Source: Halichondria panicea (lineage: Eukaryota > Porifera > Demospongiae > Suberitida > Halichondriidae). Taken from it: 64,000 nucleotides of DNA. Every line of letters starts with the position of its first letter. Within the stretch, counting starts at the first letter, position 1. The stretch covers positions 5,079,205 to 5,143,204 of the forward strand of contig NC_087378.1 in NCBI RefSeq assembly GCF_963675165.1, written 5' to 3'. Of the stretch, positions 1 to 58,733 are shown piece by piece. A program made the position numbers and the translations under genes. The notes beneath the pieces were generated by a model. That model searched no databases, was not told where the DNA came from, and saw nothing but the letters and a program-made list of their open reading frames with translations.

Positions 1-3000
1 TTGCTGTCCAAACCAGAAAGTTCATGTACTCAAAGCAGTGCCATTAATAAAGCAGCTGAAGATGTATCTAACAAATTTCCTAACAACGTTGAGTTTAAAC
101 AGGTAAGGTTAAACTGTGATCAGATTTTTAATCACAGTGAATGATGTTTGGTTTCAGTGCAACTATGTTCCAAACAAAGGCTCTCAGGCAGACTGTCAAA
201 ATGCTGAGTATGACACTATACTAGCACTGAGCCTTACCAAATGGATCCACCTAAACTGGGGTGATGATGGCATCAAAATGTTCTTTAGGAAAATCTACAA
301 TCATTTGAGACCAGGAGGGCGCTTGATTTTAGAACCGCAGCCTTATACATCGTATTCAAGGAAAAAGAAACTTGCTGTAAGTGTCTATGGGGATAAAATA
401 ATGTGCGTACATGTATGTACATGCAAAGGGTATATACCATATAGCAGGTAATTTTTGGGGCAAAATATTCGTGGTTGAGCAATAATAATTATTAATATTT
501 AGTCATTTCATGGATAACATTTTCGTGGTTGCTGCTTGCCCCGCAGGTAAAGGTAGGCAAGGTCGCTTTATTCAAGTTTATACCCTCGAAATATACCCGC
601 TATAAACCCATGCATGATTATATCACTCGTGTTGAGTTGTGGACTCGTGTACTCTTGTGTTCTTTTACTAGGCTGGGTTTTTTTCACTGAAGAAGGCTGT
701 TTATTCGAACAAGTTTGGGGTACAGTGCTAGCTCCTTATATATATAATTCCCTTGTTGTTCAGTCTTTAGAATAATGTTTTCTAAGCTTCAGAGAGAAGC
801 TTCAGCTAAGAGCCATTCCAATCGATTCCAATAATAATAAAACGGGAACTGACTTCGTACACGATAGTACACGAATATAAATGTCACAAAAGTGAACGAG
901 AATATACTAATAGCCAGAATTGGCAGGCTTAGTTGTTCGCCTAACCGTTATAAAAGCGAAAACTCGGCCTGGGATCAAGGCTATACATGCAGTAGCATTT
1001 GTGAACTTGATCTCTTTGGACACACCCTTTAATTAATTATTCCTGAATATGTAATGCGCATGCGCACTCATTCCCCATGTGTGAGAAAATAATATCCAAG
1101 ATCCAGATCATCTTTTTCTTGAGGGCCTGGTAAACACTACCATATACAACAATGTAACAATGTAGATGCATGTACACAAGTCTTTTCACTGAACTACAGA
1201 TCCTGAAAGAATCAATTTTCTTCTTTCTTGAGGTCCTGGTAAGCCATAAATAACAACAATAGATACATGTAAATAAGTATTTTCTTCTCAGTGACTTTAT
1301 ATAGAGAAGCTAACTTTAAAAACTACTATAACACTTGAGCGAAAGCATAACATGGCGAGAGGCATTAGCAAGCGCACGCTTGCAACATTCGTTTATAATA
1401 TATATAGTAGGGAGAATATAAAAATTATTATATTTTATTAATAATTATAAGCTTTTTTCTATAATGAATTTTACTAGCAGAAGTGATTATATCTAGTGTT
1501 TTGTAGCTTACCAGGACCTCTAGAAACAGAAATTGATTCTCTGCCAGGATTGTGGATGAGTGTGCATGCGCATTAGAATAACCCTTTATCGTTCAGCCGC
1601 ACACAATCTGGAAACAGTTCCATCACTTTAGTTCGCATCTGAGCCCAACCCACCAAATTAGCTTGATGTTATCTCCGCCCCAAATGAAGTGGCTAATGGC
1701 TTTTAGATCATGTTTGTCATAAATACTGCAATCTGATTGGTTAGAGGAAATGTTCTATCCAATTTAGAAAATCATGTACTTCAATAGAAAATCATGTACT
1801 TCAATAGAAAATCATGTACTTCACTTAGAAAATCATGTAGCAAAGATTAGATAAGAACATTCAAATCTGATTGGCTAAATACTCATGGTTGCTATGATCT
1901 AAAATGGTTAGACACTGTTTAAGAAGTTTCCACATGATTTAGAAGTCCTCAGGGCTAGTAGAACCCTCACTGCGTTCGGGATACTACAACCAGCCCTTTG
2001 GGCTTCTAAATCATGTAGAAACTTCCTAAACAGTGTCTAACTATTATGTAGAGATGGGCGTGGGTCAATGGCTGTGCACAAACTAACCATCGATTTTATG
2101 CTTTGCTGCTGCCTCGATGGAAGTATGTGTGGCCTTTAAAAGCTGCACTCTGGTCAACTAAGCTGCTTAGCAAGCATGTAGACCATTGTAGAGCTTGTGT
2201 CCACTTGTGAAGTGCCTGTGTACACAAATGGCTTGCTGCTTCCTCTTCGAAAATATTCTATGGCTACCAAGATAGTCCAGAGGGTCTATCAATGGATACT
2301 ACTCAGTCCTACATGCTGTATAGCTTGTTTTAAACCTTTTTTTTTTTTTTTTTAAGTGTCCTAATTGAACAGCTCAGCAGAACATCAAAGGATAATCGCA
2401 TTCATGATACTATCCAATCTGCCACAGAATCCAATATCATGCAACATTCACAAGTTGATAGCACACTCCCTCCCAGATAGTTGTTGTAAAAATTACAACA
2501 TTTTGACTGGTAAAGGGATAAGGGTTGTGTCTGCAAGAGGTCAAGTTTATGGCCGGCTACTAGCTGCTTTAGCAGCTCTTTTCTGACTCTTGTACGTAGT
2601 TAATAAAAAGCTAGCGCTTTAGTGCAAGGATAACTCATAAGTTGAATAAAAACTTGCGAACAAATAATGCTACGAAAGATTTTGAAGAGACTGCAACAGC
2701 CTTCAATTTGAGTCAAACTAGCCATAACTCGAGAAAGAAGCTTTAGTTTGCTAATCCACGAATCAAAATCCAAGAGAACGTAGTTAGAAGCTGTTAGTTT
2801 TCGTCGCATTGTAATCGTTGAGCAGTTACAGACAAACAGACACACACACACAGTCGTATCCCTCATGCGGCTACGCCTCGAGGCATAACAACGCTGGCTA
2901 GGAAAGGCCATTAACTAGGGGATGCTGGAAGCATTGTGTAGGGCGAGCCTTAGCGAATTTGCAGGTAGTAGTGTTGTGTAAGCGTGGGTGTAGAGAATAA

Positions 3001-5366: not shown

Positions 5367-8300
5367 TTACCTTAGTTTTGACCGCAGGGTCAGCACCATT
5401 AGCCAGTAAAAGTTGCACAAGGTCTTTGAAACCATTCAGTGACGCCAGCTGGGTGTACTTTTGTTCAAAAGGTACATCGTAGATTAATGTAATGTTCTCA
5501 CCATAAGTGGCGTCTTTCCATTTTTATCACACTTGCTCACATTTGCCCCTGCCTCGATCAAAACTTGAGCGACTCTAGCTTTACCACCAAATGTTGCTAA
5601 TACGTGCATATCACGTTCACACACTTGTAATAGTAATGATTACAACAAATAATTGTGCTTCAAATAATTAACTAATAATTAACTATGTTTTTTTGCTCAC
5701 CAGTTCTTAGTAAAGGTGTCCAGCCCGACAATGTACATTCATTCTTATCATCAACCTATAATAGCATCCTATAATGTGCACTGATAGTGCACGCAACCTA
5801 CGTTTACTCCTTCGCTAAGGATGTAGTTAATTGTAGATAGGTTCCCTCCGTCTACTGCGTAATGAAGAGCTGAGAAGCCTGTACAGAAATGAGATATTAA
5901 GTATAATTTGCAGTGGTAATTACTACCTGAATTGTCTCGACTAGTCCAAGACGCTCCACTGTCTGCAATAAGTTTTGCTCCCTCAGTATTGCCAAAATAG
6001 CAAGCTTCCATCAAACTGGTATAGCACAATTTACACGATAAATTTTGGTATGTGTGTATACCGTATAGCGGGTATATTTCGAGGGTATAAATTTTCGCGG
6101 ATGGACCATTACAAAGGATTTCGCGGATTTTATTTTCGTGGTCTGAGTTCCAGCCTTTTGGCGCATGCGCACATCAACATGCAGCTGTACCTCCACACCG
6201 TTAGCCTCGAATCCAGGCCTAGCCTATACGGTGAGGCACCTCTTATTGTCGATAAGTGTGGTCAATAATACTGAACACGCCTACTATTCAATAAAGATAT
6301 AAATTTTCGTGGGTATAAATTTTCGCGGTAGAGGCTCAATCCACAAAAACCGCGAACATTTATACCCTCGAAATATACCCGCTATACGGTATGTGTCAAC
6401 CAGCTGTTGCATATAATAATATTAGGCGCGAGTATTCTTCAACCAATAGGATTTAACTATAGGATTACACCACTTTCGTAGTTTAGCAGTTCAGTTGCAC
6501 GTGTTTTCTCAATCATTGACAGCATAATAGATAGTACAGCTATTATTGGGGAGAGTACGTGGAGTGTGTCGCCTGCCCCCACTAGCCTGAAAAATTATTT
6601 AGGTGGTCTTAGGTGAATTCTGGTTGGTTTTGGGGTTGCCTTTGCTACTCGATCAGTAACACATCTAGCAAATTTTAGGGGAAGGGGATATCCCTGCACG
6701 ACACCCTGATACATAGACATTTGAAAAAGTGCACTACATACTTTAAGGTGACATATTTTCACGAGTACTGCAAATGAGCAAAAGTGTGTACTTGCAGATA
6801 ATTGAAAATGCAATGAATCTCATTAAAACTAACTTAATTGCAAGTAATTATAAACGCTATGACTAGCATTAATTTCAAAGCCAGCAAAATGAGCTAAACA
6901 GTGAAATCGATAACAAATTTATCTGTGAAAATAAGGTAGTGAAGGGAGGGGAATTAGAAATGAAAGCCAATTACATGGTGCTTTTACATTTGAAGTTTGA
7001 TGTCTATTTGGAGGCTCTAGGAACATTCGTCTATCTGTGTCATTGCCCAGCTATGTGTCGGGGAAATTTCTTTTTTGTGTGTGTCCAAATACGTATAATT
7101 CTCACCCCCATAACTGATTCTATACTACACTCCCTGATAGTGAGGAAATGAAGAAAGCAATATTTTTGATTGTCTTGAAGTAGCTAGAAGTACAGAACAT
7201 TTGTTCACACTTAATATGAGATGTTTGTTTATATACTTGCAATACGTACATATACTGTGCCATAGGGCCTCAAATGAGGTGGCAGTGGAGTTAATGATGT
7301 TTAACCTTCCATGTTAAAACTAAGCCTCGATAAAACAGCAGATATAGCGGATAAATTGAATATCATTTTCAACTTCAACAGAAACAACTATACACGACAA
7401 CAGTTGTCAATCGTATTCCGCTAAAAACATTGTACGGTTGTGAACAACGCAATTGTCGAACTACATAATTATTACATAGATAAATTAAAGTAGACTTATG
7501 AAACTGGATTGACGTGCGGCTCCCCATTTGCTTGTTTTGGTGCTTCCCCCACCAACCAAATGTAGTATCGTATTACAGCATTTTGTTTACACACAGTTGC
7601 ACTATTTTACCTTGTTTTACCACCATAGTTGCAGTATTCTACATTTGCTCCCATGTCTAAAAGAAGGGAAACGATGCTGCATGGGATCATGTACATAAAT
7701 TGCTGGAATATATACATAGCTTACTTGTTTTTAGTTTGACTGGAAGCAATCATTAACGGGGAAGATCCGTAAATATCAGGTACATCAATATAAAGTGAAC
7801 TATGAAGAGTAAAGTCTTATCATACACCATGTAGCTAATAACATTTTTTACTTCTCATCCAGTATGGTCTTAACTGCCTGTAAATTCCCTCGATTTATGG
7901 CCTTATGAAGGTTTTCGCTTGTTCTTGGCTGTTCTATATGTATGAAAAAGTAAAAACCGCCCAAGTTATCTGATGACTGTATGACCCACAGAGGAATTGT
8001 CTATAACAATTTGTACTTACTATCAGTTGTAACAGTGACAGTACAGCTCCAAGGTCCAATACCAGTGTCATTCAAAAGCCTGACACAGTATGTATACTGT
8101 GTTAGCGCCTTCAAACCAGTGAAAATGTGCTGAGTAGCATATCCCCTGAAAAATATACAGTTTTCTGTTACAATGTTTATCCTTCTGAACTGGAAATACA
8201 TACACGTTGAGTCCCACTCTTAGAAGCTTGGCAAACAAAATGATTGATGCAGTGAAACTCGACTTGTAAATGGTTCAATGTCTGGGCGTGCTAAGCATAC

Positions 8301-25026: not shown

Positions 25027-25659
25027 TTAAGACAAAAATAAAGGGTGACAGTTGTTCCATTTTACAGGTTTTCTACAGTTGGGGCATTTTTGTTGAGCTT
25101 TGACTGCCTTTTTAATGCATTCATTGCAGAATATATGGCCACAATGAGTGACCATTACATGACGGCCATCTTTTTCAAACTGCTGGACAGTTTCCATACA
25201 TACAGGACAGTTAATAATATGCTTTGACGCTGGTGATGTTTTTTCAGTAACAAAAATCGCGCCAACTTGCTTTGTTGGGGTTACATGCCCAATCTTTAAA
25301 GAGCAAGCCCCTTCAGTTCCGTCGGAGGTCCGTCTACTTGAGCCGTATTTAGATTGGCCACCTCTTTTATAGGTTTTAGGCTCCTTGTAGGGATGAGCAG
25401 GCAATTCCATCTCAATAATGTCATCATCTGAGTCCGAGTCTATAATCAATACTTTTGTGGAAGTTGATACAGCATGAGATGACCTTCCTTCATTTGTTAA
25501 GTCCACAAAATTATCATCACTGACTGACGAGGAAGAGCTCACAGACAGGGGTCGTCTAGCCCATCTCAATCTGGTTGCCTCTTCACTATTGCCACCGACA
25601 CTCTTTCTCGATCTATATAACAAACAAGTGCATGCTGACAATTGGTCACAGACACACAT
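25027..25659 (-). CDS. RNF4: RNF4-like SUMO-targeted ubiquitin ligase
   Basis: The open frame reads 210 residues. At the C terminus is a C3HC4 RING: CPVC at 151-154, CGHIFC at 173-178, C181 and CPNC at 192-195, followed by the family-typical HPLF ending. Upstream are SUMO-interaction-like hydrophobic/acidic motifs: NFVDLTNE (50-57), VLIIDSDSDDD (70-80) and IIEMELP (81-87). RNF4 binds poly-SUMO chains and ubiquitinates the modified protein in the nucleus; length and layout fit (human about 190). An ATG at 25659 opens the frame, but a TATATAG acceptor at about 25613-25619 just before SRKSVGG suggests the true first codons may lie in a separate upstream exon, which I could not place. It converges with sideroflexin, 274 bp apart. 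Confidence 0.88.
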   Translation of the reverse strand: MCVCDQLSACTCLLYRSRKSVGGNSEEATRLRWARRPLSVSSSSSVSDDNFVDLTNEGRSSHAVSTSTKVLIIDSDSDDDIIEMELPAHPYKEPKTYKRGGQSKYGSSRRTSDGTEGACSLKIGHVTPTKQVGAIFVTEKTSPASKHIINCPVCMETVQQFEKDGRHVMVTHCGHIFCNECIKKAVKAQQKCPNCRKPVKWNNCHPLFLS

Positions 25660-26878
25660 GGGTCTAAAGGACTTAGGTGGTCAAATACTTATCAATACAA
25701 CCAATGATAATTACGATAATGATCATCTGCGCACATTTGAAAAGGCACCCCACACGTGTAAAACGCATTCGTTTCTTGTCACCGTTATCTTACAGTGGAA
25801 TTTTGTCGTATCCTGTATCCTATAACCATTGTCGATCTATATGCTAACTGAAGTGCTCAGAAGCTGCCCTTCAAGGTGCAGTTGATTGATAAGACTAGAA
25901 CCTTATTGTTGCTGCTGCATGTACATTCTTATAGCTTCTGCTGCTGGAGAAAACTAGTGATACTGACAGACATGCACTCTTAAATAGATGCTAAGCATTT
26001 CTGTATAATGGGTCAACATTCGTGGTTATTAATCAATTCGTAGATATTATTTTGTGGTTGCTGCTTACTGCAGGTAAAGGCAGTCAATGATTGCTTCATT
26101 CGTGGGTAAAATATTCGTGCTCAGGGATTCAACCAAGAAATGTTTCCCCTCCCCCAAAATAACCCGCGCTATGATATGCAGTCCATTTACATGAATAACC
26201 CTTCCACCACAAATGAAGGGAGCAAAGAAAGTATTGCATGATTCTTAAACAATAATTATGCCACTTGTACTGTATGAATTACCAACAGGCCCTGGAAAAT
26301 TATGCATAATAGGTTACGTTATTATGCTGGGGCGTAATAATTATAGGGTAAATTGGTCAGTTTTGTGTAAATTCAATGGCCGGTCCTCTGCTGATGTTGC
26401 TAAACGTGTTTTTTCTCTTTTAAATGCCTACTTTACATCTAGAAGATTATGTTGAATCTTCACTTATGTTACAAATTTGCAATACAACAAGAAATTATAA
26501 CTTTTTTGTTGCTTCTATATAATTTACATGTACTGCTGAAAAAAGATTATTTATGAATTCAATGTGGGGCATAATGGATTCATTCGACAAGCATAAAATA
26601 GGCTGAATTTAATTGGGGAAGTGCTTAAAAGAACGAGTATTACAACTGCGCTGTGCTAATGGCCTCTCGCCATGTTTTGCTTTTGCTCAGAGTGTATAGA
26701 AGAAGTAATCAGTTATCTTATTTATACAATTATTGTTGACATTGAACCACACAGTCTTTATAGAAAAGGAGCTTAATGGCAACAGAAGTCTAGACTATCT
26801 GATGCCCTGATGAATGGATCTTCAAGGATAGAAGCATGTACAACAGTTTATTGCATTTCCTGTCAATGAATAATTAAA
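25660..26878. other. intergenic, repeat fragments only
   Basis: It holds the putative RNF4 upstream region, a degenerate family E copy at about 26005-26175 (GGTAAAATATTCGTG, inverted arms) and a family C fragment (CCTCTCGCCATGTTTTGC) near 26663-26680. No supported gene was found. A GTAAGATAAC splice-donor-like site for a minus-strand exon lies near 25785-25794. Confidence 0.5.
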
Positions 26879-34448: not shown

Positions 34449-37400
34449 TCATAGTCCAAAGACAGTTGGATTAGGATTGCTGAATTCCTCAGGGCAAATA
34501 TCTGGTGAATACGGCACACAATTCAAGTAATGACAAAAGGAGCAGAAACTTGGATCAGGAATGAAGTAGAAGGTGAAAAAGCCAGCCAGATATAGAAGAA
34601 TGAGCAGTGGTATGCAGATAATCAACAGAATACGTTTGCGAGCTGCATCCCATTTGCCAAATGTGATGAAGGGTACAAACACTATGGCAGAAGGCATGCC
34701 AAATAATAAGCCACCTGAATAAAAAGATATTACAATTAGATGGTGGACTACTACAAGGCCAACTCAATACAATAAGCTACAGGAGCCTGGCCATGCATTT
34801 GTAACATTTTCACAATCTTTCAAACCAACTCATACTATAATGCCCAAAGCACAATATGCTACAAATCTTATACGTGAAGAGTTTCTCACCAATTTGTGCA
34901 AAGTTGTCCAGATATGGAAGTGTACCAAGGGCCAACAAAAACACAACAAATCCAGTGAGTTTCAGAAGCTCTAGCCACGCTTTGTCAACAATCTGCCAGA
35001 ATTGGAATAACTCTACATAGAGTACAGCCAAGAGACCGAATACAGCTCCTCCAACACCACAGTTAACACCATAGGGGATAAATACTGCACTGATCTGCAG
35101 AGGTTATAGAATATCACCACAGTTCATGGTAGTAGTACTAGTTTCATGTACATCAACTTTTAAAACTCACTATGTTTCCACCAACTCCACTGAGAAGGTA
35201 AATGATACAAAACCGTAGCCAACCAATAGTTTTTTCAATCTTGATACCCAAGTATAACTGTACAGGTATGTAAACCAAGAGATGAAGAACCCCAAGATGC
35301 AAGAATATGGATAAGAACCATCTCCAAAATTGCTGGGCCGAGGGCTGAAACCCACTACCTTCTTCACTGATTCCAACCTCGTTGAACCCACAAATATTTC
35401 GAAAACAGTTGACCTAAAGAACATACGCGACAGATAAAGAACTATACACAGTGCAAGCACACAAGCAAATGCTGCGAGTGAGTATTTTATAGTTTAAAAC
35501 TCACCTCCTGACACGCCTCATTATTAGGATGATAAAACCCTTGTCGAGCTTCACACTCTTCGTAAGATATCACCATGCAAAGACCAGTGATGGACACACA
35601 GCAAGGATGAAATGTTGGCAAAAAGAACACTGACTGATTGCTTGAGCAGAAAACACCCGTGTCATACCCAGTTTCGTTGAAATCAGCAGTCGTGGTCAAT
35701 GTAGTAGAATTTCTAAAGAAGATCCCACATTGCTCGCTTGGTACAGTCCCAATATTTCCCTCATTCCTACAGCAACCGAGCTTGTCTGGATCATACAGAA
35801 TAGCATTACGACGTCGAATCCCAAAATCTGTACGCATGCAAGGTGTAAACTTAGCACCAAACTGAATCAGGATGCTTGCAGGTGGCCCAATCCATAGGTT
35901 GACTCCTCGAAAGTAGGTAATATTAGCAGGAGTGGTGCCATTGAGAGTGGGGAAGGTTCCATTATTCTCTTGAGGAGAGACATGGATTGGAGCAATACCG
36001 AACAGTGGCAACAACACAATCATAGCCACCACCTGTAAGTGAGAAAAGAAAAGTGAAATGTCTTTTACATGTACTATTCATCTAATGAGATGTGCATTAA
36101 TTTTATCAGTGAAATATAAATGCGCAAACCAAGGCATGCAAATGTAAAAAAGGATTCAATTGTACATGTAATATGATAGCTGGTACGTAGCTTCATTTAG
36201 TTTACGTGTAAGTCACTAAAGCTGCATTCAAGATTCAAGACCAGGGGGTAGAATAAATGTTTCAGGCTCAAAGGTGGTTAAAAGCGAATTATGGTTGTTT
36301 ATTGCCACAAGGGGTGGAAATGTTTCTTAGACAAAATTAATGAATGGAAAAATTACCCTAATCTGCATAGACACCAATTAAGGCACAACCATGATTCTCC
36401 GCTGACTATTAGGTCACCATACTGATTCACCTGTGCCAAACTGATGAGAATCGTACACACTGGCCAAAAAGAAGGAAGAGACTCCACCTCGTTACGAATA
36501 AGAGTACTTTGACGCTGAAGTTTCATTCTCTTCTTTTTTTTACGCCTCTGTACCTGATCAGCTGGAGTGTCAACTGAAGCTAGTCGATCACGTCGTAGAG
36601 ATCCACCACGCTGTTCTTGTCTTTGAGCACCACCACCACCCACAGTGGAAGCTGTATGTATCAGTGAAAAGGTCTTATATACATTCAACTACAGTACTGC
36701 AAGTATGAATCATGGCAAACAATGAAGTCTTACAAGCATCTCCAAAGAATTCCAAAGCATCCACATGTGCCCTCCTCCTCCTCACTTTTTTTTCTGCCTT
36801 GATAAACTTCTGATAATATTCCCATGCTTCACTCTTGTCATGAATCAGTTCCTGTCTTGGAGGAGGGAGGACAGGGGCAGCCTCTTCAATGACCATTATG
36901 TTAGCAGCAGGATAAGTTGCAGCTGTAGTCAAAGGAAGGAATCATCTACCTCACAGATACCGTTGAAACTAACAATTAATTAATTACTAGGGATAGACGC
37001 GAAAAACGATAAACAAAACGTTGCTAAACCGGTACACGTGTGTGAACGTACTACGCACGTACAACTTATTGCATACTTCCCCTTAAAATTAACTTACCCA
37101 ACCCTATATAAGCCTCTACCTAACATTTCCCAACCATATGTACAAATTGGTTGAAACGAGTACATCCAATTTTGGCGTGAAGTGCATGCACATTATAATC
37201 CCAAAAATAAACTAGAGCACTGGCCTGAGACATGATTCTAAAGCATGTCTCATAATTAGATTCCTATCGAGTGCTGTACAATGTGAAAACAGTAGTACGT
37301 CATCAGGACATGAAGCCTACCAGGGGCGTAGCCAGAATTTTGAGGAAGGAGGTACTATCATAGATTAAAGAGGGCGCAAAGCGCCGAAATTTGGTGCACC

Positions 37401-40400
37401 GGAAGCCACACCTCTTATTAATGACATTATAATTAACTTATCTGCCTAGTTGGGCGTGGTCCAATCTTCTATTTGCATAGAGAAGCCTGTTTAGCTACGA
37501 AAGAGAACTAATCTATAGAGAATACTGTAATACTAGAATGTTTTGCGAGCATTAAGGTTACGATGCAGTGTTTGCTCATGAATTATTCATGAGTTTTTAT
37601 TTTTTGTTTTTGTGAGAAAGGAAGATATTATTTTATGTGTCTATACTGTTGCACTACTCATACAGCGCTTGCTAGCTATCAGTACTCTAACTAGATGGCC
37701 AAAAATTTACCACAAAGATCGTGTGGTCACTGCCGATTTTAGTCGTCAAATATTAGACAAAGAAAGACTCTAACAAGAACTAAACAGTGACCTACCAGCA
37801 GTTTATGATATTCCTGAGGGCGGCTCGAAGAGTTCTTGCTCCTATCTATCTACAAACTGAAGAAAAATGCCATAGTTTACTAGCTAGTCGGTTATTTTTC
37901 CATATTTTTCTACTTCTACACGAGCTAACTCGATGACTGCTCACCGTTTTGAAGAAATTGTTTCGAGCTGCCCTGCCCCTTTCCTCCTTTAATAGATAAT
38001 TGCCTTACTGGCAAAGAGCATGCAATATCTAGCATATAAAATGACGACTAGTGTATACAGTCAAGACAAGCTTGATTTACTACTGATAATTACTGCGTGG
38101 GCGAACACTGCATCGTAACCTTAAACATTTGCAAACTTTACGATGGTTGATCGCAACAATAAAATCCGCAAAATACACACGATCCTTGCCAGAACGCAAT
38201 AGTTAGATCGCAAAGGGTCAAATTTTCTGCTGATTTGGCTCATTCGCAAAGGTTTTTCACCCGCAAAATATTCTGTAGCTCAGTTGAAAGACTATATCGT
38301 TTTGCTTGCCTACTAGGTAGCTAACTGCAGCAAGATCTGGAAGAGAAGGGGGGTGCTCAGCTGGATAATCATACACTTCGTGTACAATTTCAGCCTACTT
38401 GAGATAGAAAGGGGGTGCTTAAGCACCATGAGCCCACCCCCTGGCTACGCCCCTGCCTACTGGCTAACTAAAGCTGGGGCAAGGTTTTGAGAACGGCATT
38501 GCTGCGCATTGAACTGGGACTAAAAAAGCTTGTTTTCCATGCAACATTAATCCAAAATTAATCTTGGGCTTCATGCACTTAGTTTGTAGTGATTGAGCAG
38601 TTTGAATTAAAACCATGTTCAGCTACAGCTAACGTGCAAGCATTACGCTTCTTTTTTTGCTCGCTGATATTCGATAACAAGGTTTGTTGATAAAATCTCA
38701 ATAGACCAGTTGCATATAAGCGTTGGAATGTGTTGAGCTGGTAATTACCTTTCAACGTCACGGCTGGATGCCATCGTGGGCGTTATATCTATGCACAAGT
38801 CATTGTAAAATTCGAGACTTTACACGTGCACTGTGCGCATGCTATTTAATGTATCCCAGTAGAAACAAATTTTGCTGAACTTTCCTTCTTCTGCTGGAGA
38901 AGCTCTAGCCATCCAGCTCTCTTCCTTAGGTCTCTAGGAAGTCTCTGGAAAGAGACAGTTATCTCTTGTCTTGTGTTCTCACAAAGTATTCATTTAAGCC
39001 CGGCTCTTTGTTTATGATTATCTCTAGAACTGAACACTCTTTTGACTTGCAACAAAGACTAATATACACGTGGAGAACTGCAGATTCAGCAGAAATTGTT
39101 TCTACTAAACAGCATGCGCACAGTGCACGTGTAAAGTCTAAATTCATGAATTTTACAATGACTTGTGCATAGATATAACGCCCACGACGGCCGTGACGTC
39201 ACAGCAATTATCTTTAGCTCTTACCTGCAACTGGTCTATTAAAGTTCAGACACACTGGCTAGACTATTAAAACCCGTGGCCCAGACTATGGGAATCTCAG
39301 GAATTGACATAGAGTATATACCACAGAGAAACATTGTCCATGTCGTGACATTTTTCTAATGTACAAAAATGTTTCAAGGAAAGCAAACTACACCCTGTTA
39401 ACAAATATGGAATTTTTGGAAGTTATTCTGCAGCCCCCCTTCAACTGCCATGTATAACAAGATGCTCATAGAGCATTCACCCTGTGCGTTGAGCTTCATT
39501 GTATGCGCACAGCGGCAAAACAGATACAATAACTTTTTACCATTAATTTTATCACTATGGGGAATGATCGTGAATCTATAAAGCAACGATTAGATGGATT
39601 AGAAAACAGTGTTTTTGTCGCCTTCAAAAATCGTCTATAAGTTTCAACTACAATTAGTTCAACTACAATTAGCCTACTATTTTTCAACTACTGTCTCATT
39701 AGCAGTTAAAGCATGCAGTGTATAAAAATGTCTATTTTCGCTCAAACAGCTCACTTTTGTGTTCACACACACACACACACCAATCACTCCGCGTGCTGCG
39801 CACACGCACAGGGTAATTATATACAATGTACATATCATAATCATAATAAATTGACAAAAGAATGGAACACATACCTGGATATGTTTGTTGTTGAAGCAGG
39901 CCAACTTCGTTTCCTATCACACCCCCTCCGGGTGCAGATTGCCATGGATCATTCGGGGCACTGCAGTGTATAGTACAAAGCAGGCCCATCATTGAAACGT
40001 TCTCACCATTAGGTGTACATGTAAACTGTACTACTATGGTATGGCGTTATTATTGTCTGTCACATGCAGTGTACATTAGATCTTGGTGTACAGGGTGTCA
40101 TACAGGGGAAAGGGAGATATCCCCCGTAGCTCCAATCCCCCCCCCCCCCTAAAATTTGCATTCATGAGTTGTCTGACTGAGTGTCCCATATAGCTGGGGT
40201 ATTGAAATAACAGTTGACCTTTTTTTAGCAACATTTTCTGGCTACTTTTCTTATTTCTTATTTCCCCCCTCTACATGTACTTATAATTATGGATATGACG
40301 TTTTGGGTGTAGTTTGGCAGATAAAACTACTTAAATAGAGAGTAGATCGAATGATTCATTATCTTTCATTATCCTCGAGACAAGAACCCCAAATTAGTCA

Positions 40401-43400
40401 TTAGATTCGAGGTAAGGTCATTTTTAAGCCGCAGCTATTTCCTGCAATACATCCACCTCGCTATTCTGGCCAAGCTGCACTGTCCCAAGGGTGACCGGAT
40501 TAACGAGAGTTTACTGTATTTTCTTCTGGTTACCGTGGCTACTTTAGAACATGGCAGAATTCAGAATTCCTACGAGCGACAAGGATTGCACAAATCAACT
40601 TCTCAACTTCTTGACTGATCATTTCGTGCTATGCCAAAACACTCAAAACCTCACTGTATACTGGTACTTGTATCAGAGATTGAAGAGAGAGGGATATGAA
40701 ACTTGATGACGTGTACATACAATCCGTGTTGCCCAAAATGGGCGTGGCACATTGTCTTTACTGCAATTTCTATGTAAAATCATGTAAAATACTTTGTGGG
40801 GACTGTATCTCTGGACTTGCTGCTACATATAGAACAAAGTTGATATTAAATGCAAGAGTAGACCTTTGGGAAGTGCAACAGCTCCTCAGCTAAAAGCCAA
40901 GAGACAGCTTGTTCGATCACTTCAACTTTTTTGACCTCTTGTACTTGTCCTGGAGCAAAATTTTGCAAAATTGTACACTAAAAATCGATTATACTTTCAG
41001 CATCAGAGCGATCTAGCCTTTGAGACAGGCACCAGTACATAGAATACATAGCTAACATTAAAACTCATCACTAAACCATCTTATGAAAACCAACTTGCTT
41101 TCTGCTACAGTCCCACAAAGGCTAGTATAGCCAATAAACCAGGGAATCTGGCGTTCTGGATTTTATTGCCACCAAATATATTTTAAAACAATCTGTGGCT
41201 AGTCAATTATATGATCATAATTCTTCAAGTGAGTCATCCAGCTTCCCATGGGCCTGTTTTGTTTTATTTACAAATTAAACCGCCATTTTTATAGCAACGC
41301 GGAGTGCCTAAACTTTTTACTCTGTTTTACATTGAGCACATAAGCTCACGTGATCTAGTTTCACATATCCCCTTCTCTTCAATCTCTGCTTGTATTGCTA
41401 TCTGTCAATTAGGTATACGGTAGTGTGAGTGTGTCTGTGTAGACTGCTACAGCTGCTCAAGGATCAATCAAGTGCAAGTAAGAGTTTTATAGGTTTCTAG
41501 TCATGGATTTTAATTCGTGGATTTGCAAAATAATGCTTTGTCCTCGAGTTATGCCTAGTTTTGCTTACTTGGAATGCCATTGCAGCTTTTCAGAAGAGTG
41601 CGCAGCCAAACTTGTCCATGGAGTGTTGCTACTCTACTTAGTAATTAGCTCTGCACTAGAACGCTAGCTGCAAGAGTGAGAAGAGAGCTGCAAGGCTCTG
41701 CTGACTCTGCTGTGATGCAGCCATTAGCTTGAACTTTTTTTTTTTTAACATAGATCGTTTTTAGCAACAATCATAGTCGATCATTACCCACTCTTTCAGT
41801 TTCTGTGTGATTCTGGATTCTGTTTGCCATGCAGTAAAATTAATCAATGCAAAAATGTTCATCATGATATAATAATGTGTGTATAAAAGGTATTAGTAGC
41901 ATATGTTATGTAGCTTTGGCACCTCCACCGAGGCATCAGCACCCGCGGTGCTTTCATTCGCAATGGTTTTCATTGTAGTAATACAGTGCATAACTTATGT
42001 GGTGAATTACAAACAGTAAAATTTGTTGTCACACAATTCATCGATCGATTAACTCTTAATGAACTTTCTCTGATACAAGGTAACATAATTATTTTGCTAT
42101 TTCATGTTTAGCACATTAATTTTGGGGGCATGCTTAAGTTATGAACAAATGTTTTCATTAGTACAACCAGTACGTTGTACATAGGATTGACAGTGCAATT
42201 GTGTGTGTTTTCAAATATTGCATAAGACATAGCGCAAGTGGTTTTAATGAACTATCTGCAAATACACATTTCTTGAGTAATAACCGCGAAAACAATTATG
42301 TCATCCTAAGGTAATACAACAAATCCCTCACCTTGTGCTTTGGCCTTCACGGCCTGTTACATCCAGGTAGTTTGGGGGTGCCTCGGACATGAAGCCATCT
42401 TCTTCACTGTCACTGTCTCCAAGGTCATCCATGTTAAAGCTCCGCCCATCAGCAATGGACGGGTAATCAGGTGGCGGAGGTTCATCAAAAATCACCCTGT
42501 TTGGGCGGCGTTGTGAAGCACGCCGACTGAGAGTACCAACGAAACCAACTGAATTGCTCTCCTGAAAAGGGCATGCACATAATTATATAGTAAGTAACTA
42601 GGGCACTAAAGTGCTAAACCCTCGGCTTGGGTGTATACTAATAGTGTGCCTAGCAATTGTGTACTAATGATACATAATTGTTATCAGGAAATGAGTGATG
42701 AAGCCTAGTGGCCAATAAACATTGTAACTTTGTTTCTTGATATGGAGCCTCCCACCTAGAGGCAAGGCTGGGACAGCCATAGGTCATGCACTAGGGACTA
42801 GCAAATTCAGCAAATAAAACTAAGACTTTACTACAGGAGCCAGAATGCAGCGCTCTGTAGTGCACAGGCAAGCAAGCCTGTAATTGACTTGCCTTGAATT
42901 TAGGCCATAGGCTAGCTAGTCAACATGCGAGTATAATTGTATCTTAGCTTTTGTTCTCCATTTTTTGGACAACAAATTAAAATAAGAGCCTTAAATAACT
43001 TGTTGTCCATACTGTAAATTTACAGCCAGGTGACTTAGAATATATATATGGATAATTATGCCTTGAGGCGTAGCCACATGAGGGATACAGTAAAGCTGAC
43101 TGTGTGTGTGTCTAAGTGTGTGTGTGTGTATGAGTGTATTCCAGCTGTAACTGCTCAATGGTTGCAATGAGACGAAAACTAACAGCTTCTATAGGCTTCT
43201 TTCTAGCCACGTTCTCTTGGATTTTGATTCGTGGATTAGCAAACTAAAGCTTCTTTCTCGAGTTATGGCTAGTTTGACTCCCATTGAAGGCTGTTGCAGT
43301 CTCTTCAGAATCTTTCATAGCATCATCTGTTTGCACAAACTTTCTATTCAACACATGAGTTAGCCTTGCACTAAAGCGCTAGCTTTTTGTTAGCTACAAG

Positions 43401-46400: not shown

Positions 46401-49095
46401 ATGTTCTAGCACTGCGTTTACAGCATGAGTAGCCTCCACACAACAAGTTAGTACTTTTGATAGTGGCAGCTTTTGGTGTTAAAGCTTCTTTGTCTAATAA
46501 AAGCGAGCAAAATGTAGATTGAACAGAACTTGCACATGCGTTACTTATAACTGAAGTGATCCTGTACCAAGAACGATGGAACAGGGTCACTAAAGTAGAA
46601 AGCTGTATATACCAGGAACAATGGAACAGGGTCACTAAAGTAGAAGCTTGAATTATAGCTAGCGCTCCTGCTGCTGACTGGGATCCTACTCCATGCAGAA
46701 CCTGGAGCCATACTTCTCTGACTCCAGGCTTCTTTACTGTGATCCTAATCCACAGTGCATATATCTATAGTACCACTACTTGTTCTCAAATGTTTCAGCA
46801 TGCCTCCAGTCTGGTTTAGTTTTATTGCTCCTGAGTTGCTGTGCAAGTCATACATGATAACAACATCACTATATGCACTGCATTATATTTCTGGTTTCTT
46901 TATAATCATGTCACCAGCCGAGGGTTTGCACTTTAGTGCTCTAGTTATCTGTAGCTCTCTGCAACCTTTCTTGAGAGAAATATTAGCAGAGTTTCAAAAT
47001 TTTACTTGCCAATGGTGTCCGGTATAGAGGGCTTCTACAGGAATACATTATTGATAGAGTACCCTATCTAGGTGACGTATGTACATAATTATAGTGCCTA
47101 TAATTATTCCAGCTAATATGAAAACTGTGTAACTGCCATAAAATACCCATTCCATGTTAGTGTAATGCGTGCTTAATGTTCCACACAGTTATGTCACCAT
47201 AATTATTAAAATATGCCTTTTTGGGAACTGGTTATCACAACTCGTCACACAATTGTGGCACACTTAGTCTCGGTATAGATTGCTTAACACATTCCCCCAC
47301 TTTCACTGATGACTTTCAAAAGTGATCAAGAATTATACTACAACATACATGTACCTCCACTCTCCGTTCAGTGTATTCCTCCCAGCCTATGGTTTCCGCA
47401 GTGCCTTGCTGAGACGCTTCAGTCACACCAAAGAAATTACCCACTATAGTACCCACTCGACGCAAGGAAGTAGCTAAAAAAATCAACATACATGTACAAT
47501 CATACATTTTAGCATCGTGTTTTAGATGCAATATAATTATGATGTATATGCATGTAGTTGAATGATTAAGGTTACAGTAGTTGCTCATGAATATTCATGA
47601 TTTTGTGAAACTATAAATGTCATGATAGCACATACACGATAAATATATTGGTGTATCAATCTTCAAAACATTTTTCAGTGAAAGCTCTGAGCGATCATCA
47701 AGTTACTAAACACAAACTAGTAGTCATTTTAAACTTCCAAAAATACTTCTAGCTCTGTGTTCTTGCTCTAATAGGATACTTCTTGCCATGCTGGAGGGCT
47801 ACACGAAGAGTTTTTTCGTTCCAGGCCAGGAAACTCTCACAAAACAAGAATATGTCGCTGACAGAGGAGCCAAGAAAAACAGCCTCTTGTTAGCCTTTTT
47901 CTTCGTGTGGCCCTGCATATAATTAAGCTACAGTAGACTGCTCCTAAGCATCTATTAAAAGTGTCTATTCGAGCCTTGAAATAACTACTGCGTTTCAGCT
48001 GAGACTTCCATGCAGCTCATCCTTGCTGCTCAGATCTAGCTAATGAATATTACTGAGCAACCATACCCTTAAGAAACACACCATAAGATGTATCAACTTT
48101 GATCAACAAATCACTTACTGAATGTGCTGCGGTTCTCAGGAAAGGGAGGTTCTGGGGCTGTGGGCTCTGGGATACTGGTGTTGAATGTCACACGTGATGA
48201 CTCAGAGTAAGGAGGAAATACCGGGTCTGGTGGGGGAGTATGCTCAGACATGATTACTGACGAACGCACTCCGGTACCATCATTTAAATTGATATGAAGC
48301 ATAACCTGAAAAGGAAAACATTATACATCAAACTTAAAGTACAAAGTTGAAAGATAACTAGTGCTCAAGGAATCTGCTAAAAAAAAACTCATTTTTTGTG
48401 AACATATCATATTTTTGTAACTGCTTACCTATTCATGTTACAAGTGATTGCGAACATTATTGTGTGTACAGAGATCTACTTTGAAAACAAGCACAATCTA
48501 TATTTGGTATGCATATGAATCACGGTATGTAGTGTTTCCATCATGTGATACAAACAGACACTATCGTAATTATATTGTCCTGCACATGCACGTACCTTTT
48601 GAGGAAATAGCTCTGGGGTGCCTATCACCCAATACAACATGCAGTTTTGGATAAACAAAACTATAAATTTGCTCTCAAGTCCCTGAATCGATCAGTGGTA
48701 TGTTAGCCTGAGAGGCACACAGCCACACATAATTATTCCAATGGGGGCTGGCCGGGATATAATAAATAATACCTGTTGGCTGGCATGGTTGATGGTTGTT
48801 CATGCATGATACACGTACGTACACACGATACAATGTCAGTATAGATCTACACGTCATAATTTCCAACCTGAAAGAATTGCTGCCACGGTAGCACTCCAGT
48901 TCTTGCCACCAACCTATCAAACTCTGCTGCGAGGGGCTCAGGGCTTGGAGAGTTGCCGAGCGTGCATTGTGACAGGCTTAGGTTGACAGCAATTAGGAAG
49001 TTGTCTCTGTTTATTATGCCTTCTCTTTCTTCGTCACTGAATTCTTTGAACACTTCTCTGAAATGTCGGACCTGCTCCTGGTTAAACGAGGCCAT
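34449..49095 (-). CDS. RHBDF: inactive rhomboid protein (iRhom/RHBDF)
   Basis: Eleven minus-strand exons with matching phases: 49095-48868, 48305-48119, 47473-47355, 42561-42332, 39960-39875, 36922-36734, 36651-36431, 36032-35505, 35413-35171, 35094-34890 and 34714-34449; 833 residues. iRhom hallmarks are clear: a long Pro/Ser/Arg-rich cytosolic region, TM1 near 408-434, then the luminal iRhom homology domain with VNLWIGPPA (465-471), FGAKFTPCMR and many Cys and N-glycosylation sites, then the rhomboid core (FLHLGVLHLLVY, GWLRFCIIYLLSGVGGN, VLYVELFQFWQ, LGTLPYLDNFAQIGG, ITFGKWDAARKR). iRhoms are ER/Golgi pseudoproteases; in mammals they escort ADAM17. Catalytic Ser is Gly692 and catalytic His is Gln744. 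Exon 1 encodes a degenerate EF-hand pair whose membership is less certain; in-frame ATGs in exon 2 are alternative starts. Confidence 0.93.
37321..38455. mobile_element. 1.1-kb CAGGGGCGTA element with 5-bp target duplication
   Basis: The ends CAGGGGCGTAGCCAG and CTGGCTACGCCCCTG are exact inverses; CCTAC flanks both sides (37316-37320 and 38456-38460). It carries a second, TTAA-type element inside (37553-38124). It sits in the iRhom intron 36923-39874. No transposase was found. It has the same tip as 8855-9152. Confidence 0.85.
37553..38124. mobile_element. TTAA element, GGTTAC family (long), nested
   Basis: TTAAGGTTACGATGCAGTGT at the left and GAACACTGCATCGTAACCTT at the right are near-perfect inverses and end in TTAA. 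CATGAATTATTCATGAG follows inward. It interrupts the 37321-38455 element, so it is the younger insertion. Confidence 0.85.
38700..39241. mobile_element. 542-bp long-TIR element
   Basis: AATAGACCAGTTGCA and TGCAACTGGTCTATT bound it. Long inner arms pair (ATCGTGGGCGTTATATCTAT / ATAGATATAACGCCCACGA, ACACGTGCACTGTGCGCATG / CATGCGCACAGTGCACGTGT). It sits in the same iRhom intron as the preceding element. No coding content. Confidence 0.8.
40288..40518 (+). mobile_element. truncated pogo-like element (right half)
   Basis: GATATGACGTTTTGGGTGTA, CGAGGTAAGGTCATTTTTAA and the end GGATTAACGAGAGTTTACTG match 10710-10942. The left TIR is missing. It is in the iRhom intron 39961-42331. Confidence 0.75.
40551..40706 (+). 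other. short open frame of unknown status
   Basis: ATG to TGA, 51 codons, begins MAEFRIPTSDK and has no obvious low-complexity or repeat character, unlike most short frames here. An overlapping frame runs 40696-40893. It lies on the strand opposite to iRhom, within its intron. I see no domain, and no splice or poly(A) support. It could be a chance frame or a relic. Confidence 0.2.
41411..41958 (+). mobile_element. family A repeat, left tip lost
   Basis: It begins AGGTATACGGTAGTGTGAG, keeps GGATTTTAATTCGTGG, CTCGAGTTATGCCTAGTTTT and ends CCACCGAGGCATCAGCACCC then GCGGTGCTTTCATT. It lies about 370 bp downstream (plus-strand sense) of iRhom exon 4, in the intron. Confidence 0.8.
43068..43425 (+). 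mobile_element. family B repeat
   Basis: It starts ATGCCTTGAGGCGTAGCCAC and includes ACTAACAGCTTCTATAGGCT, CTCGAGTTATGGCTAGTTTG, TTCAGAATCTTTCATAGCAT and CACTAAAGCGCTAGC. It is followed within 25 bp by a family C repeat, the same neighbour order that is seen inverted at 61430-62258. Confidence 0.8.
43446..44310 (+). mobile_element. family C repeat with nested family E MITE
   Basis: The left end is GTGAACTTGATCTCTTTGGA; the right block is GGCGAGAGGCATTAGCAAGC. The family E MITE at 43961-44162 (ends TACCGTATAAGTTTCGTGGG and AAATTACCCGCAATACGGTA) interrupts it. Downstream, 44311-45887 of the iRhom intron holds a GCCTCGATTCCAGGCC end (44518-44533) and no exon I can identify. Confidence 0.7.
45888..46950 (-). 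mobile_element. family I repeat
   Basis: On the plus strand it starts TTACCCGAGGCGCG, with two tandem copies of a GTGGGCGGCCACGGGTATAG / TAGTCTGTTGG unit (to about 46010). It then has repeated CTGCGTTTACAGCAT blocks and ends CCAGCCGAGGGTTTGCACTT. An inverted copy lies at 55771-56636, sharing more than 500 bp, including an open frame of about 65 codons with LKCFSMPPVWFSFIAPELLC. It is in the iRhom intron 42562-47354. Confidence 0.75.
47566..48073. mobile_element. TTAA element, GGTTAC family
   Basis: TTAAGGTTACAGTAGTTGCT at the left, TGAGCAACCATACCCTTAA at the right, with ATGAATATTCATGA and its counterpart GAATATTACTGAG. Both ends meet TTAA. It is in the iRhom intron between exons 2 and 3. Confidence 0.8.
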
Positions 49096-57107: not shown

Positions 57108-57667
57108 TTGCTCACTTTGAAGGCTGTTGCAGATTCTTCAGACTTTTGCATAGCAAAATCTGTTAATATAACTTAGCTATTCTACTTAGTAGTTAGCTCT
57201 GCACTAGAACGCTAGCTATTGGTAGCTGGAAGAGTCACTGCATCATAAGCACATTCTCAAGAGCTCTGCCCCATTAGAGCGTAGGCTAATAATTTAGTTT
57301 CTACGGTATAGTAGGCTGGATGTATAGCAGCCAATCCAATGGGACATTTATCAATTAAATGTACAGTGCCTCAGGGTTTATACCAGAAAATTTGTTCACC
57401 TTAGGGTAATTCTACGCTAGAATTTACTGTGGCATCTTCTCTCCAGTAGTATCTAAGCATATTTATAGGGACATGGATATGAAACGCCCCTAGATTACGG
57501 ATAGTATCTTGGGACAATTATTGACCCCCGCTACCAGAAAATGAAGAACTGGCAAGCAAAGAATCAGTTGTCACCAGAATGTACGATAGCAGGTTGAAGT
57601 GCTATCATCCTCAGCGCTTTTGCGTCTCCCAACCAGATTGTTGTACAAATTATATGAAAATCAATTC

Positions 57668-57760
57668 AGTAGAACCTTGATTATCCGGACACCTTGGTTC
57701 CAGAGGCAGGCCGGATAACCGGATAATCGAATAGATAAACCATGCCTTGATCCACCCACT
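57668..57760 (+). mobile_element. pogo-like element, left end
   Basis: CAGTAGAACCTTGATTATCC opens it, followed by GGACACCTTGGTTCCAGAGG. The inverse of this stretch is at 62975-63063. The right boundary of this copy was not found. The adjoining minus-strand open frame (57661-57969) overlaps it and is not a gene I recognise. Between 57761 and 58733 only a family I fragment (58040-58237) is identifiable. Confidence 0.55.
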
Positions 57761-58733
57761 TTATTGATAAACAGCAGTGCCACATGGTTGTCTGCGCGTA
57801 CAAATAAGGCACTTGATGTACACTGGGAGTCCTGGACGTTAGTAGGATCCAACAGAGCCAGCAAAGAGGCCAAGAGTGCTACAAGCGGGGGCGGGGTACG
57901 CTCAGAGTAGAGCCAGCAAAGAAGCTCGGAGTCTCTTCCCATGAAAACAAAAGGGGCTCTACGTGGCAATAGTGCGCATGTGTAATACAGTGCCTCAAAA
58001 TAAAGCTACGTACTATCTAGCTAGCTCTATACCGTCCAATGTGCAAGATAAGCTTCTTAGTTTTCGCTCGCTTTTATTCAACAACGAAGCCTTAATTAAC
58101 CTTAACATCAAAATCTTCCACTGTTAACTTGTTGCATAGAGGCTATCCATGCTGTAAATGCAGTGCTATGGCAGATTCAGAATATACAATAGACTAGACG
58201 ATTACAATAACCCATGGCCGCCCACACGACTCGAGTTAATAACTTTGTGTTAGATGATTTGCTGTTGGAAAAGAATCGCTATAAATTATATCTGGCTCCA
58301 ATCCCCCCTCCCCCTAAAATTGCATTTAGGTACTAGTTGTATGACTGAGTGTCCATAGCCGGCATTGTTACATACTAACAGGGTATTGAAAACAGTTAAC
58401 CAGCAAAATGTTCTATACATGTATGTTTATTTATGTCTAGCAGTTAATTTTTTTATAGCCAGTATGATAGCTACTGCGTCCACATACATTCACATACATT
58501 TACATACATCTAACTTTGTATGCTTTAAATATAATAATTATGGTTACAAGCAGTTGAGGTGTTTTCAGGTATCCTTCTTTGTGTTAGTTGATTTCTATAA
58601 CTGTAATTCTTGAATGTCTGTACTCATTTATATTGCTTAGTTTAAGGGCATCTTCAGTTTTACTGATGTAGTGTGGCTAGAAATCAAGTTCAAAATTCGC
58701 ACCTTCCGTTGTTTTTATTGAACTGGAGTAGTT

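Follow-up and report, generated by a model that had tools for sequence, protein, structure and literature searches.

A 64,000-nucleotide (nt) stretch of the genome of the demosponge Halichondria panicea (assembly GCF_963675165.1, contig NC_087378.1, positions 5,079,205 to 5,143,204 of the forward strand; hereafter the window, in whose own numbering all positions are given) carries on its minus strand a gene that, by its predicted protein, is a relative of the inactive rhomboids (iRhoms), with a 76-residue exon just upstream, here E1, that resembles a pair of EF-hands. On balance, we favour the reading in which this iRhom-like gene has E1 as its first coding exon, which would add a calcium-independent, EF-hand-like docking domain to the cytosolic tail. 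A sequence-only reading of the same DNA had proposed an EF-hand-like pair, of doubtful calcium binding, joined in phase to the iRhom exons; all three parts found support in the sequence comparisons below, none of them being proven.

E1 very probably encodes an EF-hand-like pair. EF-hand_6 was the sole Pfam family listed for it up to an E value of 10, out of 24736 families (E 0.072, 13.3 bits), and a search of the PDB sequences gave 35 matches up to E 10, of which 33 are EF-hand-type by name in our own typing, including actinin, myosin light chains, EPS15, CaBP1, KChIP1 and calcineurin B; the two remaining were RIB22 and a construct that bears the name of the calcineurin catalytic subunit. The top match was alpha-actinin-1 (E 0.086). 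On a local EF-pair profile, built from 15 EF pairs, E1 scored 14.0 bits, a value reached by none of 5000 composition-preserving shuffles (4063 reported, maximum 6.9), and the E1 open reading frame (ORF) ranked first among the 368 window ORFs that, taken from stop to stop, have 50 amino acids (aa) or more (13.8 vs 2.0 bits for the next), the EF-hand family having been picked for testing post hoc, a choice for which the shuffle and ORF statistics do not correct. With the 2225 window ORFs that have 20 aa or more, this profile gave E 0.0074 for the E1 ORF and E 8 for the next, and a profile of the first two EF-hands (EF1-2) of actinin and spectrin gave 4.3e-4 and 1.7, respectively. Pairwise comparison of E1 with 19 EF domains yielded Z values of 13.7 for actinin-1, 9.5 for myosin regulatory light chain, 8.2 for actinin-2, 7.6 for actinin-4 and 3.6 for RHBDL3. 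The pair had been called calmodulin-like; the likeness to an EF pair stood, with the first EF pair of alpha-actinin-1, and neither calmodulin nor RHBDL3, as the best single match.

From the alignment, the helices of E1 are predicted at about residues 6-19, 32-41 and 53-64, with the last starting at about residue 70 and continuing into exon 2. Loop 1 (S20-D31; SDEEREGIINRD) carries Gly in position 7 and Ile in position 8, and in the alignments it is one residue longer than a canonical loop, with its register shifted by one residue. The second loop (RTGVLPWQQFF, from residue 65) is shortened, and its stretch VARTGVLPWQQ holds no acidic residue; the positions of Gly and Ile in loop 1 and the shortening of loop 2 had been described before and are borne out here by sequence and alignments alike. 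Neither loop presents the acidic calcium ligands of a 12-residue EF-hand loop, and the pair was filed as degenerate EF-hand-like. Given the insertion in loop 1 and the short, acid-free loop 2, calcium binding by E1 is not expected, so that the initial doubt about it survives; as predicted from its loops, the module is not a calcium switch. Degenerate EF pairs can act as calcium-independent binding domains, e.g. in parts of actinin and myosin light chains.

As an exon, E1 comprises 228 nt of the minus strand (49095-48868), starts with an ATG in a good initiation context (ACAATGG), seven codons from an in-frame TAG upstream, and ends in phase 0 at CAG/GTTGGA (the slash marks the exon boundary); without splicing, the frame closes after VGNYDV, leaving an ORF of 82 aa. 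Its sequence, coordinates and phases are all as first reported. The GC content of E1 is 0.487, compared with 0.368 for the proposed intron 1 and 0.492 for exon 2. On a codon-usage score trained on 18 exon pieces from the window, E1 reached 0.060 per codon and exceeded 63 of 64 comparison ORFs (stop-free, unmasked, of at least 76 codons, each entered with its best 76-codon stretch), in a weak test of imperfect separation, leave-one-out placing 5 of the 18 training pieces below zero. E1 thus looks coding, i.e. it is an ATG-led, coding-like exon.

It is likely that E1 is joined to the iRhom-like gene in a real transcript. The exon 2 acceptor, with a score of 6.32, is the top of the 89 AGs tested from E1 to exon 3 (next 4.49), and 7 of the 4184 minus-strand AGs in the window score at least 6.3. 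It lies 3 nt ahead of an ATG and 1.4 kb from the stop of an upstream protein kinase gene; such a strong acceptor directly ahead of an ATG requires an upstream exon. E1 ends before the last helix of EF-hand 2 is complete, so that the EF-hand score could serve to test the junction separately. Among 51 variants, i.e. E1 alone, E1 with the intron retained and E1 joined to each of the 49 stop-free acceptors in phase 0, the direct E1/exon 2 junction ranked first on the local profile (17.4 bits vs 14.0 for E1 alone; reached by 0 of 5000 shuffles). When a hand-picked subset of ten of these was scored with Pfam, E1 plus 12 exon 2 residues (VMLHINLNDGTG) had the top EF-hand_6 score (15.2 bits, E 0.018; a whole-protein score, the listed stretch still being the first hand), with eight of the nine others at 12.9-14.9 bits and one without a match. 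The same 12 residues improved the actinin-1 match in the PDB from E 0.086 to 0.023, in an alignment that crosses the junction. The weight for the junction comes from the agreement of these three EF scores with the strongest acceptor, the margins being small. With phase 0 on both sides and the best EF scores for the direct junction, the in-phase joining of E1 to the iRhom exons appears to hold up.

The exons E2-E11 (48305 to 34449; Table 1) have consistent phases and give a chain of 757 residues with a stop, or 833 residues including E1. The predicted protein matches Pfam Rhomboid (E 7.3e-28), and all four PDB sequences at E of 0.001 or below are iRhom1 or iRhom2, the best among the solved structures compared being iRhom1 (3.8e-69). 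The cysteine-rich luminal iRhom homology domain was also found: residues 315-442 and 483-721 of the chain of 757 align with the iRhom1 chain 9q7y_A, the part between them being unaligned. The catalytic GxSG is replaced by GVGG, aligned with GPAG of iRhom1, so that the catalytic serine is lost; the GPx proline of iRhoms is absent from this position of the predicted protein, and Gln (DNFAQ) stands where human iRhom1 retains a His (DNFAH), so that in these positions it is more degenerate than its human counterpart. The gene had been identified as an iRhom, which holds insofar as iRhom1 and iRhom2 are the closest relatives found, but it departs from the textbook GPx motif; because this proline is missing, we named it iRhom-like. 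A tail segment of 192 residues, from exon 2 into exon 5, had no PDB matches up to E 10. Viral and prokaryote contigs held no confirmed relative of the rhomboid domain, which is no surprise for an animal gene. A possible iRhom tail motif was tried and dropped: in comparisons of the human iRhom1 tail with E1, E2, E3-E4 and E4-E7, the observed score was reached by 289, 161, 150 and 47 of 1000 shuffles, respectively, so that no segment gave a clearly significant match.

Table 1. Proposed exons of the iRhom-like gene and its first intron, in window positions (a slash marks an exon boundary)
Feature	Positions	Strand	Remarks
E1, proposed first coding exon, EF-hand-like pair	48868..49095	minus	donor CAG/GTTGGA, phase 0 end
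Proposed intron 1, 562 nt	48306..48867	minus	strong donor-like sites after 48596 and 48429; open 87-nt stretch 48682-48596
E2	48119..48305	minus	opens VMLHINLNDG; strong acceptor TTTTCCTTTTCAG
E3, cytosolic tail	47355..47473	minus	
E4, cytosolic tail	42332..42561	minus	
E5, cytosolic tail	39875..39960	minus	
E6, cytosolic tail	36734..36922	minus	
E7, tail and beginning of first membrane segment	36431..36651	minus	
E8, remainder of first membrane segment and luminal region	35505..36032	minus	aligns with solved iRhom1 chains
E9, rhomboid domain	35171..35413	minus	
E10, rhomboid domain	34890..35094	minus	GVGG vs GxSG of active rhomboids
E11, rhomboid domain end and C-terminus	34449..34714	minus	stop TGA at 34451-34449

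Several observations weigh against E1 being an EF-hand-like first exon of this gene. EF-hand_6 covers residues 12-37 of E1, i.e. the first hand only, and stays under the gathering score (25 bits) for every variant tried, while for the whole 833-residue chain Pfam lists Rhomboid only, and no EF-hand, up to E 1. The AlphaFold model of E1, computed from the single sequence, has a mean predicted local distance difference test (pLDDT) score of 50.2, with helices at 6-16, 21-29, 33-41, 53-66 and 71-74, the second of which sits at the expected position of loop 1; with this low-confidence model, Foldseek gave 16 matches at chance level (best E 3.9), and the sole one recognisable by title as an EF-hand, troponin C, came last (E 9.7). 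Addition of the exon 2 residues shortens the PDB list from 35 to 29 matches, most of which, apart from actinin-1, are no better, and rival junctions come close to the direct one both on Pfam (14.9 vs 15.2 bits) and on the local profile (16.5 and 16.0 vs 17.4 bits). The donor of E1, with T at +3 and a score of 4.8, is the weakest of the gene and ranks 9th of 104 GTs in 49750-48300, the eight higher ones including 48596 and 48429 at about 9.5. The weakness of this donor had been noted from the outset and is real, but the concern is reduced, the gap being small: the nine other donors of the gene score 5.15-11.64, three of them 5.15-5.29.

Two alternatives place E1 outside the main iRhom-like transcript. 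E1 could be a separate small ORF, i.e. the 82 aa ending in VGNYDV, or a decayed gene fragment; its frame does run open past the donor until the stop, and no homologue of E1 was found in viral or prokaryote contigs, where none is expected for an animal gene. Such an ORF would end before the last EF helix, and the corresponding retained-intron variant scores lower than the direct junction (14.1 vs 17.4 bits on the local profile, 13.6 vs 15.2 on Pfam); it would also leave the strong exon 2 acceptor still in need of an upstream exon. Of 12 polyadenylation hexamers, AATATA alone is present, in two copies, from its stop to exon 2, which is a weak point of this model; the argument carries little, because neither AATAAA nor ATTAAA occurs between the stop of the upstream kinase gene and E1 either, so that these signals do not separate the models. 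With the EF match somewhat better for exon 2 than for a retained intron, the separate small protein, which the sequence-only reading had offered as its alternative, has become less likely, and we regard it as unlikely. Alternatively, another and possibly noncoding first exon may end at 48596 (AAG/GTACGT) or at 48429 (TAG/GTAAGC), with translation from the ATG at 48302 or from the later MSEHTPP, and E1 would then belong to a minor isoform or to nothing. Both donor-like sites, at about 9.5 vs 4.8 for E1, speak for it, as do the three sites of at least 9 seen in 49750-48300, where about 0.5 are expected per 1450 bases, and the start available within exon 2. It would leave a coding-like, EF-hand-like and phase-matched E1 unexplained and needing another use, and we assign it a low probability.

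Two further alternatives concern the make-up of E1 and its surroundings. The likeness to EF-hands may be coincidental and E1 a helical coding exon of another kind, which could hold together with any of the other alternatives. The Pfam score below the gathering score, the uninformative AlphaFold model and fold search and the post hoc choice of the family are in keeping with such a coincidence, which has to face the 0 of 5000 shuffles, the first rank of 368 ORFs, the 33 EF-hand-type matches by name among 35 and an actinin alignment that covers both hands and the junction; we consider it rather improbable. There is a slim chance that E1 does belong to the iRhom-like gene and that an additional exon of 87 nt, E1b (48682-48596; GLESKFIVLFIQNCMLYWVIGTPELFPQK), lies between E1 and E2. 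E1b is open in the required frame with phase 0 at both ends, its donor scores 9.53 and its acceptor 0.33, inside the range of the gene's own acceptors, and it improves the actinin-1 match over that of E1 alone (E 0.055 vs 0.086) and comes third of the 51 variants on the local profile. It falls below the direct junction on that profile (16.0 vs 17.4 bits) and in the PDB (0.055 vs 0.023), shows no Pfam family, and an open stretch of 29 codons is frequent by chance.

Under the favoured reading, i.e. E1 as first coding exon, splicing of E1 to 48305 would let exon 2 complete the last helix of EF-hand 2 (WQQFFQ/VMLHI). The product would then have three parts: a degenerate EF-hand-like module, calcium-independent and about 80 residues long, a cytosolic tail (about 330 residues), which by eye appears disordered, and an inactive rhomboid membrane core. 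Its module may adopt the fold of the first EF pair in alpha-actinin or in myosin regulatory light chain and could provide constitutive docking at the cytosolic face, with a helix of a partner or the cortical cytoskeleton as its target; docking would in this way influence the destination or retention of the pseudoprotease and of its membrane client. This mechanism, drawn from sequence and analogy, we put forward with less confidence than the joining of E1 to the gene.

Through their cytosolic tails, iRhoms control how membrane signalling enzymes are trafficked and activated; an early-animal iRhom with a folded EF-hand-like module would offer a domain for partner tests. Such a module would also bear on the question of a possible descent of iRhoms from EF-hand-bearing rhomboid proteases. 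It is tempting to speculate that the EF-hand is an old N-terminal trait of the animal rhomboid secretase/iRhom lineage, kept here in degenerate form from an active, calcium-gated ancestor; we consider this improbable, and, if true, the evolution of the pseudoprotease would have lost catalysis first and calcium control second.

Elsewhere in the window, the upstream neighbour on the minus strand is the protein kinase gene (53794-49748), in which two exon ORFs match Pfam Pkinase (9.8e-20 and 1.5e-10) and which presumably resembles STK32/YANK. A Bin3-type RNA methyltransferase exon lies at 113-451 (plus strand; Pfam Bin3 5e-26), an ankyrin-repeat exon at 5769-6173 (minus strand; Ank 1.8e-8) and an exon of a RING finger protein, with a serine/acid-rich N-terminal part, at 25027-25680 (minus strand; zf-RING_2 1.5e-9). 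By eye, a repeat whose ends resemble CTATGCTGTAAACGCAGTGCTATGGCATCCAGGTGAGTAG recurs several times at 46600-46000 and 51500-51400 (minus strand) and is probably an interspersed element. The top codon-usage score of the 64 unassigned ORFs, above that of E1, belongs to an ORF of 114 codons at 57661-58005 (minus strand), which may be coding and has no Pfam match up to E 0.01.

Among known EF-hand proteins, the first two EF-hands of alpha-actinin are the best sequence match of E1, end to end and including the longer linker (LGNSPSPEPLAAEF vs IGNDPQGEAEF), from which E1 differs by the insertion in loop 1 and the deletion in loop 2. In alpha-actinin, EF1-2 stand beside EF3-4; an actinin/spectrin EF3-4 profile had no convincing match in the 2225 window ORFs with 20 aa or more (best E 0.49). 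The N-lobe of myosin regulatory light chain is the second family of matches (Z 9.5). It belongs to a soluble protein whose first loop binds a divalent ion and whose second loop, as seen in the sequence used for the local profile, is also shortened.

With iRhom1 and iRhom2 (RHBDF1 and RHBDF2), the predicted protein shares the membrane core and luminal region, which align at E 1e-64 to 1e-69, and a long cytosolic tail; unlike them, it has GVGG for GPx, Gln for the His of human iRhom1 and the proposed N-terminal EF-hand-like exon. The iRhom signature is a proline ahead of the lost serine, GPx, and the iRhom tails, described in the accessible part of that source as extended regulatory regions with no folded domain named there, bind FRMD8 and 14-3-3 (PMC6451368). 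Human iRhoms use their cytosolic tails, through these two partners, in a way comparable to the docking proposed here. As is proposed for the gene described here, RHBDL3 and Drosophila rhomboid-4 combine an EF-hand module with a rhomboid, that of RHBDL3 lying within the cytosolic N-terminal domain (PMC12476590, PMC12615303); the earlier remark that active rhomboids of the RHBDL3 type can have EF-hands agrees with both. Those two are described there as proteases with calcium-binding EF-hands, whereas the predicted protein has no catalytic serine, with GVGG in place of their active GxSG site, and loops without ligands. The EF-hands of RHBDL3 also resemble E1 less than do ten others of the 19 domains compared (Z 3.6 vs 13.7 for actinin-1); pairwise scores, too weak for a firm rejection, thus do not favour RHBDL3-type EF-hands as the source of E1.

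No iRhom with an EF-hand is described in the literature searched, as far as its accessible text goes and with most subscription papers outside its scope, the co-mentions concerning rhomboid-4 (PMC12615303) and RHBDL3 (PMC12476590); likewise, for iRhoms of sponges and early animals, no title or abstract opening among the matches listed describes one with an EF-hand. Extra soluble domains on inactive rhomboids are found in RHBDD3, Dsc2 and UBAC2, which, according to PMC12615303, have ubiquitin-binding domains, as opposed to the EF-hand-like one predicted here. Added domains on pseudoproteases are therefore not new in themselves, and the domain combination proposed for the sponge gene would be a new arrangement of known parts.

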